Source: a virus. Taken from it: 59,880 bases of DNA. Below the pieces are notes generated by a model. It saw only the letters and a program-made list of their open reading frames with translations. It was not told the origin of the DNA and made no database searches. The translations under genes were made by a program, and so were the position numbers. Positions 6,236 through 58,911 of the stretch are shown here, piece by piece. Every line of letters begins with the position of its first letter. Positions within the stretch are counted from its first letter, which is position 1. Location of the stretch: IMG/VR virus record IMGVR_UViG_3300008266_000061, positions 1-59,880 of that record; one strand, given 5' to 3'.

Positions 6236-6324
6236 CACACAAACGAAATGAATAAAACAAACTGAACTTGCGCTACGAAACGCAACCCAGCAAATGTATC
6301 AACAAACTTTTTTAGTTCGTTCAT
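6235..6324 (-). CDS. Possible 29-aa hydrophobic peptide
   Basis: A 29-codon frame preceded by AAAAGAAA ends at the foot of the terminator. The C-terminal half (RFVAQVQFVLFISFV) is hydrophobic and could sit in the membrane. An 11-codon frame (6321-6356) ends in an ATGA overlap with it. This could be a small toxic or regulatory peptide, or chance; there is no comparative evidence. Confidence 0.25.
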   Translation of the reverse strand: MNELKKFVDTFAGLRFVAQVQFVLFISFV

Positions 6325-6515: not shown

Positions 6516-6807
6516 CTAACAGTTTGAACTTTAGTTTGTCGTATTCCCCGACCGGGCGGACAACTTCAAGTTCTTTAAAGTGCCCACCGAGCCAAAGGTA
6601 CATATCGTTTCCTGTCAATTCATACAGTCGGATGTTTATCAACCTCATTAGCGACCGATCTCGCTTGTATTGCTTGTGAGGCTTGTGTGTACCCTTTTTG
6701 GGGCAGCTTACGTCGTCAGTTAGCAGCTTATGCCTCAGAGTCTGGAGGTGTTGCAACTCGGTCAACGTCGATGGCGTAGGTGGTAAGTATATCGGGGTTC
6801 CGTTCAT
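6502..6807 (-). CDS. Hypothetical protein (101 aa)
   Basis: A Lys-rich basic centre (residues 38-50) lies between a leucine-rich N-terminus and a C-terminal half with alternating charged residues. It overlaps the end of the DnaA-like gene by 80 bp, so the true start could be downstream. Co-transcription with a DNA-binding protein suggests a replication or regulatory role, but no domain is recognised. Confidence 0.6.
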   Translation of the reverse strand: MNGTPIYLPPTPSTLTELQHLQTLRHKLLTDDVSCPKKGTHKPHKQYKRDRSLMRLINIRLYELTGNDMYLWLGGHFKELEVVRPVGEYDKLKFKLLDEDN

Positions 6808-7213
6808 TGAAAAAATCTAATAATAGTTCTTGTTTGGCTGGGTCTAAGTCTGCAATGAAGTGTCGTATCTTATTTCTACGAACCGCATTGAACTCATAGT
6901 CTCTCTTTAGAGTTTTAATAGCGTGGCATACGGTTGCGTGATCTTTATTGATTAACCGGGCAACCTCTGCTAAGGTTTTTGTCGTGCATACCTTGACTGT
7001 TGTCATAAACACCTGCCTAGCAAGGACGATGTCTGCAAGTCTTTTGTCACTCTTGATGTCGCTGGTAGCAACAATAAAGTGTTTGCTAACCTTTTGAAGA
7101 AGCTCGTCTCCATCGGCATCCTCCATCTTGTGAATGTACTCGTAAACCTTTGTGAAGTCGGCTCTCTTAGCTGGTGGAACCATGTCCACTAAATCTTTGA
7201 ATGTATATCTCAT
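6728..7213 (-). CDS. DnaA domain IV-like DNA-binding protein (161 aa)
   Basis: Residues 44-107 resemble the DNA-binding domain IV of the replication initiator DnaA: LARQVFM helix, TLAEVARLI helix, then the signature KDHATVCHAIK (90-100), corresponding to GRDHTTVLHA. There is no AAA+ ATPase domain, so this is a stand-alone binding module. It could recognise DnaA boxes or a phage origin, or modulate host DnaA. It lies upstream-linked to the single-strand binding protein and replication genes on the same strand. Confidence 0.75.
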   Translation of the reverse strand: MRYTFKDLVDMVPPAKRADFTKVYEYIHKMEDADGDELLQKVSKHFIVATSDIKSDKRLADIVLARQVFMTTVKVCTTKTLAEVARLINKDHATVCHAIKTLKRDYEFNAVRRNKIRHFIADLDPAKQELLLDFFNERNPDILTTYAIDVDRVATPPDSEA

Positions 7214-7990: not shown

Positions 7991-9931
7991 TTATTCCCAC
8001 GCTTCTTTGTAGCCGTTTGGATGATCAGTTTCCTCGTTCCATTCCTTGGCATCGCGTGAATCAGTCCAATTTCTGTTCGGCTTGATGACCGATGGCTTCG
8101 GTTCTTCAATTTGAGCCTGTACGTACTTGCCGTCAATCGCCTGTTGCAGGTAGTCAACCCCATCAAATGTAAACCTCCGAGTGTTCCTCTGTAGTTGGAA
8201 CTCAAAGAAGCCCTTTATACCCACGATTTTTTGTCGGCGGATCTTCTTACTATGAAACTCGCAGATAGGGCTTTCTGGGGCCGTCTGGGCAAACGGACGG
8301 TGGTATATGAGGATGTTGTCTGCCTTGTTGTTCCACATCGCTCCGTCGGCAAGGTCAAATACCTCCGGACATGGGTAGTTCCCGTCGTCCCCTTTCCTCA
8401 TCTTGTGCGGGTGGACCACTATGTCAAAGTACACGTTGTTTTTCCGTGCAAAACGAGTACAGTCAGACAAGAAAGTTTCCAAATACTTGTCACTTCTTCC
8501 GCCGCCCTTCGTATAGTCATTCGCCATTTGGTTGAATGGATCAATGATCACCCTTTCCACGCCATGTTTGATAATGAGACTCAAGAAAACTTCTTTAACG
8601 TAATCCGGTGTTGGGCTTACGTCTTTGGGGTATACCATGAAGATATGTTCGCCAATCATCTTGTACACCTTCATGTACAAATCGTAGCTTGGTCGATTTG
8701 GATTGTTTGGCGTACAGTCCTTTCCAAAATAGATTTCCACAAGGTCGTGGTAAAACTGTTCGGCAGGTAACTCCTCCGGGGTAAAGATGGCAACCTTCTC
8801 TCCAAACTTGACTATACGGAATATCATCTCCCACTTCATGAATGATGACTTGCCATAGTTTCCTATTCCGGAAACAATTGTTAAATCCCCCTTCACTCTT
8901 TTGAAGTGTTTGTCAAGTAGTGGAACGCCTAGAGGTTGTGCCGCACGATATCCGTGGAGGTAAATCTCGGAAGCCTTTTCCATAACTTCCTCCGCATAAA
9001 TGACGTCCTGTGCGGCTATATTCTCCGCATCTTCTGCGGTGATTACGATGTCAACCTCCACTCGGTTACTCTTTGTAACCAACTGGTCTTTGGTAAACTC
9101 GGCGGTGTTCCACTGGTTCATGTTGGCCCTGTACGCGCTACGTATCGCCTGTCTGCACTCACGTTGGCTGAAACTAGCGTCAGGAACAACGTAGGTCATC
9201 ATCATGTTATAGCACGTCTCCTCAAGCATCCCGAACCTGCAACAGCTTGCGGCTAACTTGAACACGAAGTGATTTCTTTCCCCCTCACGGAACGCGTCCC
9301 CCTTGGAGGTCATCCATGTCAGCAGGTTGTTAAAAATCTTGTCGTCGTCGTTAATCGTTTCGGTAGTTGTCTGTTGTGGCAACCTTCTGTCGGCCTTCTT
9401 TACTGGCAATTTGTTAAAAACCTCAGCGTTTGGATTGTAATAAATTTCGGGATCATACGACTCAAAGCATAGGCGGGAAACATTTCGACCAGTCTTGTCA
9501 ATGTCTGGGAAATCATTCATTAAGGCATCGAAATGCTCCTTATGCATGGTATTCCATTCAATCCGAACCAAGGCCTTCAGTCCCTTTCCAGAAGGTGATA
9601 CCCAAACAGCCGTAATGTAACTTATAAGTGACAATTCATTTCTTTTTTGGGTGATATTAGGGACATTATCGAAATCAAGCACAATGTAACCAGAGTGTTC
9701 GACAAGCTCTGAGTCCTTACGTTTGTTAAAAACCCCACTAAAGCAAGCTGCTGGAAGTCTCTTCTTTAACTCGTCCGCCTCCTTTTTGGTTTTAGCTTCC
9801 CTCGCCTTCTCGACGAGTTCCTTTGACTTTCCAGTCCTAATTCGTTCAAGTGCGCCCAACACAGTAATCGTGTGTCCTTGCAGGTCGTTGAAGTCTTTGT
9901 AGATTGAGATTTTACCATGTATTGCTGTCAT
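7991..9931 (-). CDS. Primase-helicase fusion protein (646 aa)
   Basis: Residues 1-180 match the VirE_N/BT4734-type primase-related domain: GYIVLDFDNV (81-90) and WVSPSGKGLKALV (110-122). Residues about 200-275 form a helical linker like the PriCT region. Residues about 325-600 are a RecA-like DnaB-type helicase, with Walker A GIGNYGKSS (355-363) and Walker B VIIDPF (D464). The enzyme should prime and unwind DNA at the fork. VirE_N primases are typical of Bacteroidota elements. It overlaps the upstream organiser gene by 20 bp, indicating one operon. Confidence 0.85.
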   Translation of the reverse strand: MTAIHGKISIYKDFNDLQGHTITVLGALERIRTGKSKELVEKAREAKTKKEADELKKRLPAACFSGVFNKRKDSELVEHSGYIVLDFDNVPNITQKRNELSLISYITAVWVSPSGKGLKALVRIEWNTMHKEHFDALMNDFPDIDKTGRNVSRLCFESYDPEIYYNPNAEVFNKLPVKKADRRLPQQTTTETINDDDKIFNNLLTWMTSKGDAFREGERNHFVFKLAASCCRFGMLEETCYNMMMTYVVPDASFSQRECRQAIRSAYRANMNQWNTAEFTKDQLVTKSNRVEVDIVITAEDAENIAAQDVIYAEEVMEKASEIYLHGYRAAQPLGVPLLDKHFKRVKGDLTIVSGIGNYGKSSFMKWEMIFRIVKFGEKVAIFTPEELPAEQFYHDLVEIYFGKDCTPNNPNRPSYDLYMKVYKMIGEHIFMVYPKDVSPTPDYVKEVFLSLIIKHGVERVIIDPFNQMANDYTKGGGRSDKYLETFLSDCTRFARKNNVYFDIVVHPHKMRKGDDGNYPCPEVFDLADGAMWNNKADNILIYHRPFAQTAPESPICEFHSKKIRRQKIVGIKGFFEFQLQRNTRRFTFDGVDYLQQAIDGKYVQAQIEEPKPSVIKPNRNWTDSRDAKEWNEETDHPNGYKEAWE

Positions 9932-10589
9932 CTTGAATAGGCGTTTGTTTTATTGCTTTCGTTTGTGTTTCGTCTTCCCATCTCTTGTCGCGAAGATATC
10001 GAACCGGGTCTTTCCAGTATTTCCGTTCGCGACCCGATTTGTGGTTATTCATGCATTCTACCGCAAGTGTGCGCTCATCAGAAGATAGTTTGTTCCAAGC
10101 AGTTTGTGCTTGTTTCTTATCCACCTTCTTGTCGTAAGCAGTCCAAAAATCCTCAAATGCGTATTTGTATATTATTATTTCTTTGTTTGTATTTGTTTCT
10201 TTATATATATCGAGGTTTTCCGATTCACGGAAATCCCCGACATCGGGAAATCCCGACATCGGGAAATCCGCATCTCGGGAAAGCTGAGGTGCATCATATA
10301 CAATATGGTTCCATCCCACCATCCTGTTGGTGCTTGAATCTATTTGACGGCAACTCAAGATGTACCCCTTCTCTTGCAGGGACTTAAACACCCTGTCTAC
10401 TGCGTTTTTTGCATCTGGCATCTGATTATAAAGATTCTTTTTGTAAAGAACCCAATTCTCCGGAAGGGAAAGAAGAAAGCAAAGCATACCTTTCTCTTCC
10501 ATTGTCAAATCCTTAGACTGTGAGATTTCGTTCGGGATAATAGCAAAGTCATGCTTGCGCTTCCCTTTAACAATTTGTCCTGTATTCAT
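9912..10589 (-). CDS. Replisome organiser (lambda O-like role) (225 aa)
   Basis: The N-terminal 90 residues (HDFAIIPNEISQSKDLTMEE, then LSLPENWVLYKK and a winged-helix pattern) resemble phage replication proteins with a DNA-binding helix-turn-helix domain. A linker (about 110-145) is followed by a C-terminal domain (FEDFWTAYDKKVDKKQAQTA) typical of DnaT/organiser-like proteins. The linker-coding DNA carries four 16-bp iterons and an AT-rich tract. The ATG at 10589 is preferred to a start at 10616 inside the terminator hairpin. It probably loads the downstream primase-helicase. Confidence 0.75.
   Translation of the reverse strand: MNTGQIVKGKRKHDFAIIPNEISQSKDLTMEEKGMLCFLLSLPENWVLYKKNLYNQMPDAKNAVDRVFKSLQEKGYILSCRQIDSSTNRMVGWNHIVYDAPQLSRDADFPMSGFPDVGDFRESENLDIYKETNTNKEIIIYKYAFEDFWTAYDKKVDKKQAQTAWNKLSSDERTLAVECMNNHKSGRERKYWKDPVRYLRDKRWEDETQTKAIKQTPIQDDSNTW
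10158..10212. other. AT-rich unwinding tract of the candidate origin
   Basis: A markedly AT-rich stretch adjoins the iterons at 10221-10284 and encodes the Ile/Tyr/Lys/Asn-rich linker of the organiser. In the lambda origin, an AT-rich tract next to four iterons is the first DNA to melt. Confidence 0.5.
10221..10284. repeat. Four 16-bp iterons: candidate replication origin
   Basis: The core CGGGAAATC, or a close variant, begins at 10228, 10244, 10260 and 10276, exactly 16 bp apart. The middle units carry an internal dyad, CCCGA-CA-TCGGG. Sixteen is not a multiple of three, so each copy is read in a different codon phase; the repetition is therefore maintained at DNA rather than protein level. 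The location, in the linker-coding part of the organiser gene beside an AT-rich tract, parallels the lambda origin. Confidence 0.7.
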
Positions 10590-10594
10590 AAGAT

Positions 10595-10629
10595 AAAAAA
10601 AGCTCGCAAGAACCACTTTGCGAGCTTTT
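10595..10629 (-). terminator. Terminator/attenuator just before the organiser start
   Basis: On the minus strand a perfect 12-bp stem, AAAAGCTCGCAA with TTGCGAGCTTTT, has an 8-nt loop and is followed by more T. It ends five bases before the organiser ATG. The promoter at 10705-10735 reads directly into it, so it probably attenuates the replication operon. The hairpin is near-symmetric and could also act on the other strand. Confidence 0.75.
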
Positions 10630-18108: not shown

Positions 18109-19170
18109 ATGGAAAACAACGAATTAGAAAATCAGAACGAACAAGTTAACGAGCAAGTTAACGAACAAGTAACCGAACAAGTAAATGAACAAGGCAACCA
18201 GGAGGATATGCCGTGGTTTTCTTCGTATGGCTACGACAGCGAGGATTCATTTAAGAGTGAGTTTGAGCAACTAAAGTCATACAAGAGCCTTGCGGCGGAG
18301 CTTGAGGAAAGGAAGAGGGATGTTGAAGAGGGTCTAGCCTTGTTGCAAGACGCTGACGACCCATTCGCCGGCATTGAAGAGGCCCGCACAATGGTTGCGT
18401 TTGGCAAGAAAGGGATTAGTTCCTCCATAGCCAACCAAATCGTTTCTGCCACCCCGGATAGCTTGATGGAGGACCCATTGAAGGCTTTGGTAATTGCTGA
18501 AGCTGTAAAGAATCCTGACAAGTTCAAGCGACTTGGCCAATCGACTATCGAGGAAGCCATACGTGAAAAATATAACTTAGGTGATGGAGAATATTACGCC
18601 ACAGCTCTTTTAAAGTCTGACGCAATCGACGCAATCGAAATGATTGAAAAGACTAAAAAAGATGTTGAAGTTGTTAAGAATCCTTTTACCTTTGCCAAAG
18701 AGCTAAAGAGCCAGACTCAAAAACAGATTGCGGAAAGACAGACCATAGCACTTGCCGAGGCAGAGACCTACGCCAAGCAGCTGAAGGATGTCCCCTACAA
18801 ATTCGGCGATACGGAAGTTTCGTTACAAGTTTCAAACGAAGAGGTCGAATCGATTTTGAAGTCGCAGTATGCTGGCTATTTAGGTCAAGCCTTTGACACC
18901 ACCACAAAGGAAGGTAAACAAGCGGTGCGTGAATGGCTAACGAACCAAATCCTCATTCATAAGGTTCAGTCTGGGGATCTCGGAGTTCAAATTGCCAAGT
19001 CACTTACGGCTCAAACCGAAAAAAAGGTGGTACGCGAGGTCTATAACGGTCAGCCTAAGACGCCGAACCGTGTAGGCAAAACGGCTGTTGATCAGAAGGG
19101 ATTAACCCCAGCTCAAAGAGATCTAATGGAGCGCGGCATTCCTTTCCCATCGCAGACGCTAAAATCATAA
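18109..19170 (+). CDS. Candidate scaffold protein (353 aa)
   Basis: The protein lies between portal and major capsid protein, is highly charged and helical, and has an acidic N-terminus with about five NEQV/TEQV repeats (residues 8-28; 12-bp DNA repeats 18141-18190). These properties fit an internal scaffold that guides prohead assembly and leaves before packaging. The basic C-terminus (RVGKTAVDQKGLTPAQ) fits capsid binding. Inferred from position and composition. Confidence 0.7.
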   Translation: MENNELENQNEQVNEQVNEQVTEQVNEQGNQEDMPWFSSYGYDSEDSFKSEFEQLKSYKSLAAELEERKRDVEEGLALLQDADDPFAGIEEARTMVAFGKKGISSSIANQIVSATPDSLMEDPLKALVIAEAVKNPDKFKRLGQSTIEEAIREKYNLGDGEYYATALLKSDAIDAIEMIEKTKKDVEVVKNPFTFAKELKSQTQKQIAERQTIALAEAETYAKQLKDVPYKFGDTEVSLQVSNEEVESILKSQYAGYLGQAFDTTTKEGKQAVREWLTNQILIHKVQSGDLGVQIAKSLTAQTEKKVVREVYNGQPKTPNRVGKTAVDQKGLTPAQRDLMERGIPFPSQTLKS

Positions 19171-58858: not shown

Positions 58859-58911
58859 GGTGGTGTACTTATTTTTTAGGTGGTGTACTTAAATGTGAGG
58901 TGGTGTACTTA
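58859..58911. repeat. Three 13-bp direct repeats, 20-bp period
   Basis: GGTGGTGTACTTA occurs exactly at 58859, 58879 and 58899. The array spans the junction between two minus-strand genes: the start codon side of one and the last codons of the other. The 20-bp period places copies on roughly the same DNA face at about two helical turns, fitting a protein-binding array. On the minus strand each unit reads TAAGTACACCACC. Confidence 0.75.

Follow-up and report, generated by a model that had tools for sequence, protein, structure and literature searches.

Does the initiator gene of this virus contain the origin at which its own product would act? The question is raised by a short run of repeats in IMG/VR record IMGVR_UViG_3300008266_000061, of which positions 1 to 59,880 were analysed (a stretch of 59,880 nucleotides, hereafter the window). 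The preliminary description had read these repeats, together with an AT-rich tract, as a lambda-like origin nested in the organiser gene. Comparison of the layout with relatives and with known systems supports that reading: the segment is very probably a phage replication origin, at which copying would begin, lying within the gene that encodes its own initiator. The features concerned are:

9915-10589, minus strand: replication initiator (replisome organiser) gene, 225 codons, phrog_270, with a match to TP901-1 Rep
10281-10589, minus strand: predicted winged-helix DNA-binding domain at the N-terminus (codons 1-103)
10220-10278, minus strand: four-iteron array, 16-bp period, palindromic core CCG-N4/5-CGG
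10268-10278, minus strand: iteron core 1, CCGCATCTCGG, 11-bp core
10253-10262, minus strand: iteron core 2, CCGACATCGG
10237-10246, minus strand: iteron core 3, CCGACATCGG, identical to the core at 10253-10262
10220-10230, minus strand: iteron core 4, CCGATTCACGG, 11-bp core
10158-10212, minus strand: A+T-rich tract, presumed unwinding element, on the C-terminal side of the iterons, codons 126-144
9915-10157, minus strand: C-terminal domain (FEDFW...RWEDE), common to DNA-binding types I, II and III of the relatives described below
7991-9931, minus strand: 646-aa primase-helicase, presumed partner, encoded by the following gene of the operon

The initiator matched the PHROGs family phrog_270 (replication initiation protein, E 1.6e-19) and, by tblastn, the Rep protein (ORF13) of TP901-1 (32.5% identity over query residues 6-119, E 2e-13). 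Candidate start codons are the ATG at 10589 and an in-frame GTG at 10616, of which the ATG is preferred because both the exchange boundary and the type III relatives point to it. Directly upstream of this ATG lies a terminator-like hairpin (10598-10629, minus strand; a 12-pair stem and a T-run), kept among the relatives listed with changed stem pairs (GCTCGC/GCGAGC, GCCCGC/GCGGGC, CCCGTA/TACGGG) and possibly an attenuator of initiator synthesis. Separately, 26 bp on the plus strand at 6237-6262 match the 3′ end of the initiator gene at 92%, in opposite orientation and adjoining a hairpin. The N-terminal domain is predicted to be a winged helix. In an AlphaFold2 model of modest overall confidence (mean pLDDT 66), this domain had pLDDT values mostly of 70-86, with helices at residues 30-41, 50-56 and 61-73 and strands at 77-84 and 89-97; residues 104-130, coinciding with the iteron-coding part, were of low confidence, and the C-terminal domain was helical. 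A fold search with the N-terminal domain gave weak winged-helix matches only, to MarR-type regulators and the primosome protein DnaB (none at E 0.001 or better), and a search of solved structures by sequence with both domains gave no useful match for either.

Direct reading of the sequence confirmed the four repeats at an exact 16-bp period that had been described, the CGG half-sites starting at 10228, 10244, 10260 and 10276 in the plus-strand reading. The layout was likewise as described, repeats and A+T tract lying between the DNA-binding and C-terminal parts of the gene, with the array at codons 104-124, ~310-370 bp inside the gene. The outer two iterons are imperfect (11-bp cores); an exact CCGAYNTCGG occurs nowhere in the window except at the two perfect cores, and by TRF score (75/71) the array ranks third in the window. 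That protein repetition cannot explain a 16-bp repeat was borne out by randomisation: with the protein kept fixed, codons drawn by phage usage and lag-16 similarity scored, the self-similarity of the linker was unmatched in 1000 random-codon trials (P about 0.001). An in-frame 12-bp repeat encoding NEQV units (18136-18193, ORF 18109-19170) was also considered as an origin and rejected, its period being divisible by three and its position inside an ORF.

Relatives with the initiator's DNA-binding domain were drawn from IMG/VR scans (53-99% identity). Within one DNA-binding family, 54 distinct linkers held 152 CCG-N4/5-CGG cores compared to 1.0 in letter-shuffled linkers, counts to be taken as a sign of consistency and not as a formal probability, as the relatives are non-independent samples. 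The comparison of iteron spacing among relatives that had been proposed gave 16 bp for 84 of the 98 adjacent pairs of cores (otherwise 15 bp, n = 1; 17 bp, n = 7; 32 bp, n = 5; 33 bp, n = 1). Since 16 is a multiple of three plus one, successive iterons fall in different reading frames; all three are used by the first base of the cores (61/46/45), and the iteron DNA encodes R-x-R, P-T-S or T-D-x-G depending on the frame. Across 19 type I genes, iteron codons 104-124 had the lowest amino-acid identity of the gene (0.62), yet their synonymous divergence was 0.136. At the linker, where protein conservation is lowest, synonymous change is thus also low, which places the constraint on the DNA. The preliminary description had set out the reverse case, relatives with the linker protein kept and the 16-bp repeats lost; the opposite was found, with repeats, spacing and synonymous sites kept.

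A low-complexity linker peptide, with the DNA repeats as its by-product, would find a footing in the type II relatives and in TP901-1, where a 15-bp period translates into a repeat of five residues. The 16-bp unit of the window and its family, however, yields different peptides in its three reading frames, the linker protein is the part least conserved while its synonymous sites are constrained, and synonymous codon shuffling destroys the signal. For the 16-bp family this peptide reading is refuted, and for the locus it is scarcely credible. A survey of Firmicutes found significant intragenic repeats in 13 of 68 homologues compared to 0 of 51 next genes, the synonymous test being weak for 15-bp in-frame repeats, which applies to the remaining homologues without a significant signal.

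The adjoining tract (10158-10212) is 80% A+T, the 99.85th percentile of the window, a richness that 12 other spots also reach. Its synonymous divergence across the 19 type I genes was 0.083, compared to 0.25-0.44 elsewhere in the gene outside the iterons, a value that the codon composition of the tract may depress somewhat. Both elements bear on the possibility that the initiator binds its intragenic repeats as an operator, repressing or roadblocking its own operon, with the true origin elsewhere. Palindromic sites would suit a dimeric regulator, and the initiator gene leads into the replication operon; yet sites this deep inside the gene are in no promoter position, the A+T tract conserved alongside them is unneeded by an operator, and characterised homologues use such repeats as an origin (PMC8965321). 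An operator in place of an origin is improbable, and operator and origin roles can coexist.

Other signals in the window were compared with the intragenic segment. GC skew switches near 10.5 kb but is uninformative on the origin, as transcription switches at the same place. The near DnaA box that had been claimed near the iterons (TTATCCACC, 10117-10125) did not hold up: the window holds 89 sites that differ from a DnaA box by at most one base, compared to 123 expected by chance; this one shares bases with the codons of KKVDKK, a conserved C-terminal motif; and the site stays within one mismatch of a DnaA box in only 15 of 44 relatives. No conserved DnaA box was thus found near the iterons, and the proposed box was rejected. 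A phage protein of 161 aa encoded at 6731-7213 (minus strand) matched the C-terminal DNA-binding domain of DnaA (PF08299, E 7e-17) and gave no match to the ATPase domain. Genome contigs searched for the host held no close relative among the loci listed, and a Bacteroidota-type promoter signal was weak (7 sites compared to 1.9 expected).

A 20-bp repeat in 2.7 copies (AAGTACACCACC, minus strand) occupies 58859-58911, directly upstream of a small minus-strand ORF. An origin outside the initiator gene, for instance here, could appeal to the TRF score of this repeat (78), but the unit was absent from 14 of 15 relatives and single-copy in 1 of 15 (some records being possibly partial), and such a placement is very unlikely. 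A second origin, as SPP1 has, may lie elsewhere.

The primase-helicase encoded by the next gene carries PF08800 (E 7e-20) and PriCT_1 (E 8e-5) domains and matched phrog_18375 (primase/helicase, E 1e-50) and the DnaB-like helicase phrog_19 (E 3e-10). At least five kinds of C-terminal domain occur among IMG/VR relatives sharing the DNA-binding domain. The RWEDE-type C-terminus (and its L071 variant) was paired with the 646-aa primase-helicase as next gene, another type with a 582-aa primase-helicase-like protein, and other types with small proteins of about 204-245 aa, a pairing seen by inspection, without a statistic, among next genes that were only partly classified. This pairing fits a partner interface, and the C-terminal domain presumably contacts the phage primase-helicase. 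From this arrangement we infer a course of initiation in which the winged-helix domain would bind the 16-bp palindromic iterons, several bound initiator copies would strain and open the A+T tract, and the C-terminal domain would bring in the primase-helicase, whereupon the origin would fire. Binding to the repeats is suggested indirectly, by the joint exchange of domain and repeats.

Among 44 close relatives, the DNA-binding domain and repeats occurred in three types (I, II and III) on one phage backbone, across which the C-terminal domain was nearly constant and the primase-helicase also stayed. Type I has the 16-bp iterons; type II has 15-bp repeats of a related core (e.g., GGGAAACCCGATGTC) and a domain about 40% identical to that of type I; type III has a different helix-turn-helix and 22/23-bp repeats. 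The iterons were co-inherited with the DNA-binding domain. Window and type II DNA agreed at about 80% identity in two stretches, one running from upstream through codon 8 and the other starting just past the last iteron; codons 9-121 between them, which hold the DNA-binding domain and all iterons, showed no match. In the closest pair, L141 (type I) and L170 (type III), both flanks were 95% identical and the sequence from the ATG to nt 453 was unrelated. A tree built from 2.4 kb of downstream sequence (44 phages) implied about 16 switches of type (minimum needed, 2; shuffled labels, 19.9), with 12 forced changes for type I on starred branches alone, and the upstream tree implied 18; these counts are approximate as the flanks may themselves be mosaic, while the direct pair comparisons are independent of any tree. 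L302 combined a type III-like domain (50%) and its own tandem TACCCCTCCCATTGAAA repeats with a C-terminal domain found with type I in L084, and the modules therefore combine both ways. In L169 (800-1531), a type III variant, domain differences from other type III genes clustered at residues 44-66, the predicted recognition segment, and the repeats had changed together with it, a single case that may represent a natural specificity variant.

Such frequent exchange of the domain is what would be expected if the repeats were recombination sites promoting that exchange and not replication. The breakpoints, however, fall at the start or first codons and beyond the iterons, placing the iterons inside the exchanged piece, and the iterons differ between types where a recombination site is expected to be common to both partners; this explanation is highly improbable. 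With the repeats read as an origin, related phages have repeatedly swapped recognition domain and presumed start site as one unit, and it is the frequency of swapping that stands out. Domain and origin may form a self-contained specificity cassette in one gene, its type nearly uncoupled from the flanks, in which origin-directed antagonists select switching; this is put forward tentatively, as possible rather than probable. The antagonists meant are origin-targeting nucleases, origin decoys, satellites and competing phages, as proposed likewise for PLE satellites. Overall, sequence alone allowed a probable origin to be assigned to an environmental phage lineage, by an approach that includes a test telling DNA-level from protein-level repeats. 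Phages that are almost the same except in a cassette of roughly 340-450 bp, which carries the DNA-binding domain and iterons, form a natural set in which the origin-recognition code (domain compared to iteron spacing and sequence) can be tested directly, as can the reasons for switching.

The initiator and origin of the window join an already known kind, the phage initiator with an intragenic origin of the TP901-1/Tuc2009 Rep type. According to PMC8965321, the organisers of TP901-1 and of Tuc2009 (Rep2009) each bind direct repeats located in the organiser gene itself, and these repeats act as the origin; cloned in trans, such elements confer phage-encoded resistance. The window has in common with this type a homologous N-terminal DNA-binding domain, direct repeats inside the initiator gene that are selected as DNA, and an adjoining A+T-rich tract conserved as DNA; the TP901-1 repeats (TTTTCCAGATGTGGC) also lie in the linker behind the DNA-binding domain. 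The visible repeats of TP901-1 are 15 bp and in frame, whereas those of the window are 16 bp and read in three frames; the C-terminal part of TP901-1 Rep also differs, and the next gene of the window is a fused primase-helicase.

TP901-1 Rep is the homologous precedent, while lambda O shares the plan, being likened by layout. The parallel drawn in the preliminary description, four iterons and an A+T tract within gene O, was found in the same order, with a DNA-binding domain, iterons, A+T tract and partner-binding C-terminus (NC_001416 annotation); in lambda the four iterons occupy codons about 117-144 of 299, with A+T-rich sequence adjacent (PMC3349717). A partner gene follows in both, but in lambda the partner is the loader P. 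The lambda iterons are 18-19 bp long and spaced 20, 24 and 23 bp, compared to the fixed 16 bp of the window, and the window's initiator was set apart from lambda O and ori-lambda by iteron length and spacing rather than by direct comparison with the O protein; lambda was not among the tblastn matches listed for the initiator. In SPP1, gp38 binds direct oriL repeats inside gene 38 beside an A+T unwinding element (PMC6316719), a likeness to the window in layout, but SPP1 also possesses oriR, an intergenic second origin, as well as a separate loader gp39 and helicase gp40.

In lambda, phages are inhibited by iteron-bearing plasmids that match their replication type (PMC3349717). In the PLE satellites of V. 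cholerae and ICP1, the RepA_N DNA-binding domain and its cognate origin are exchanged as a module with the 3′ part of the initiator kept, an exchange that has been tied to evasion of a nuclease directed at the origin (PMC8263062). There the selecting agent is the Odn nuclease, which is without a known counterpart for the phage of the window. By analogy, inhibition by lambda iteron plasmids, the lactococcal resistance elements and PLE nuclease escape could offer a plausible reason for the swapping seen here. The PLE origin lies in a separate noncoding region, whereas that proposed for the window lies inside the initiator gene, so that one short segment would carry both the recognition domain and the origin.
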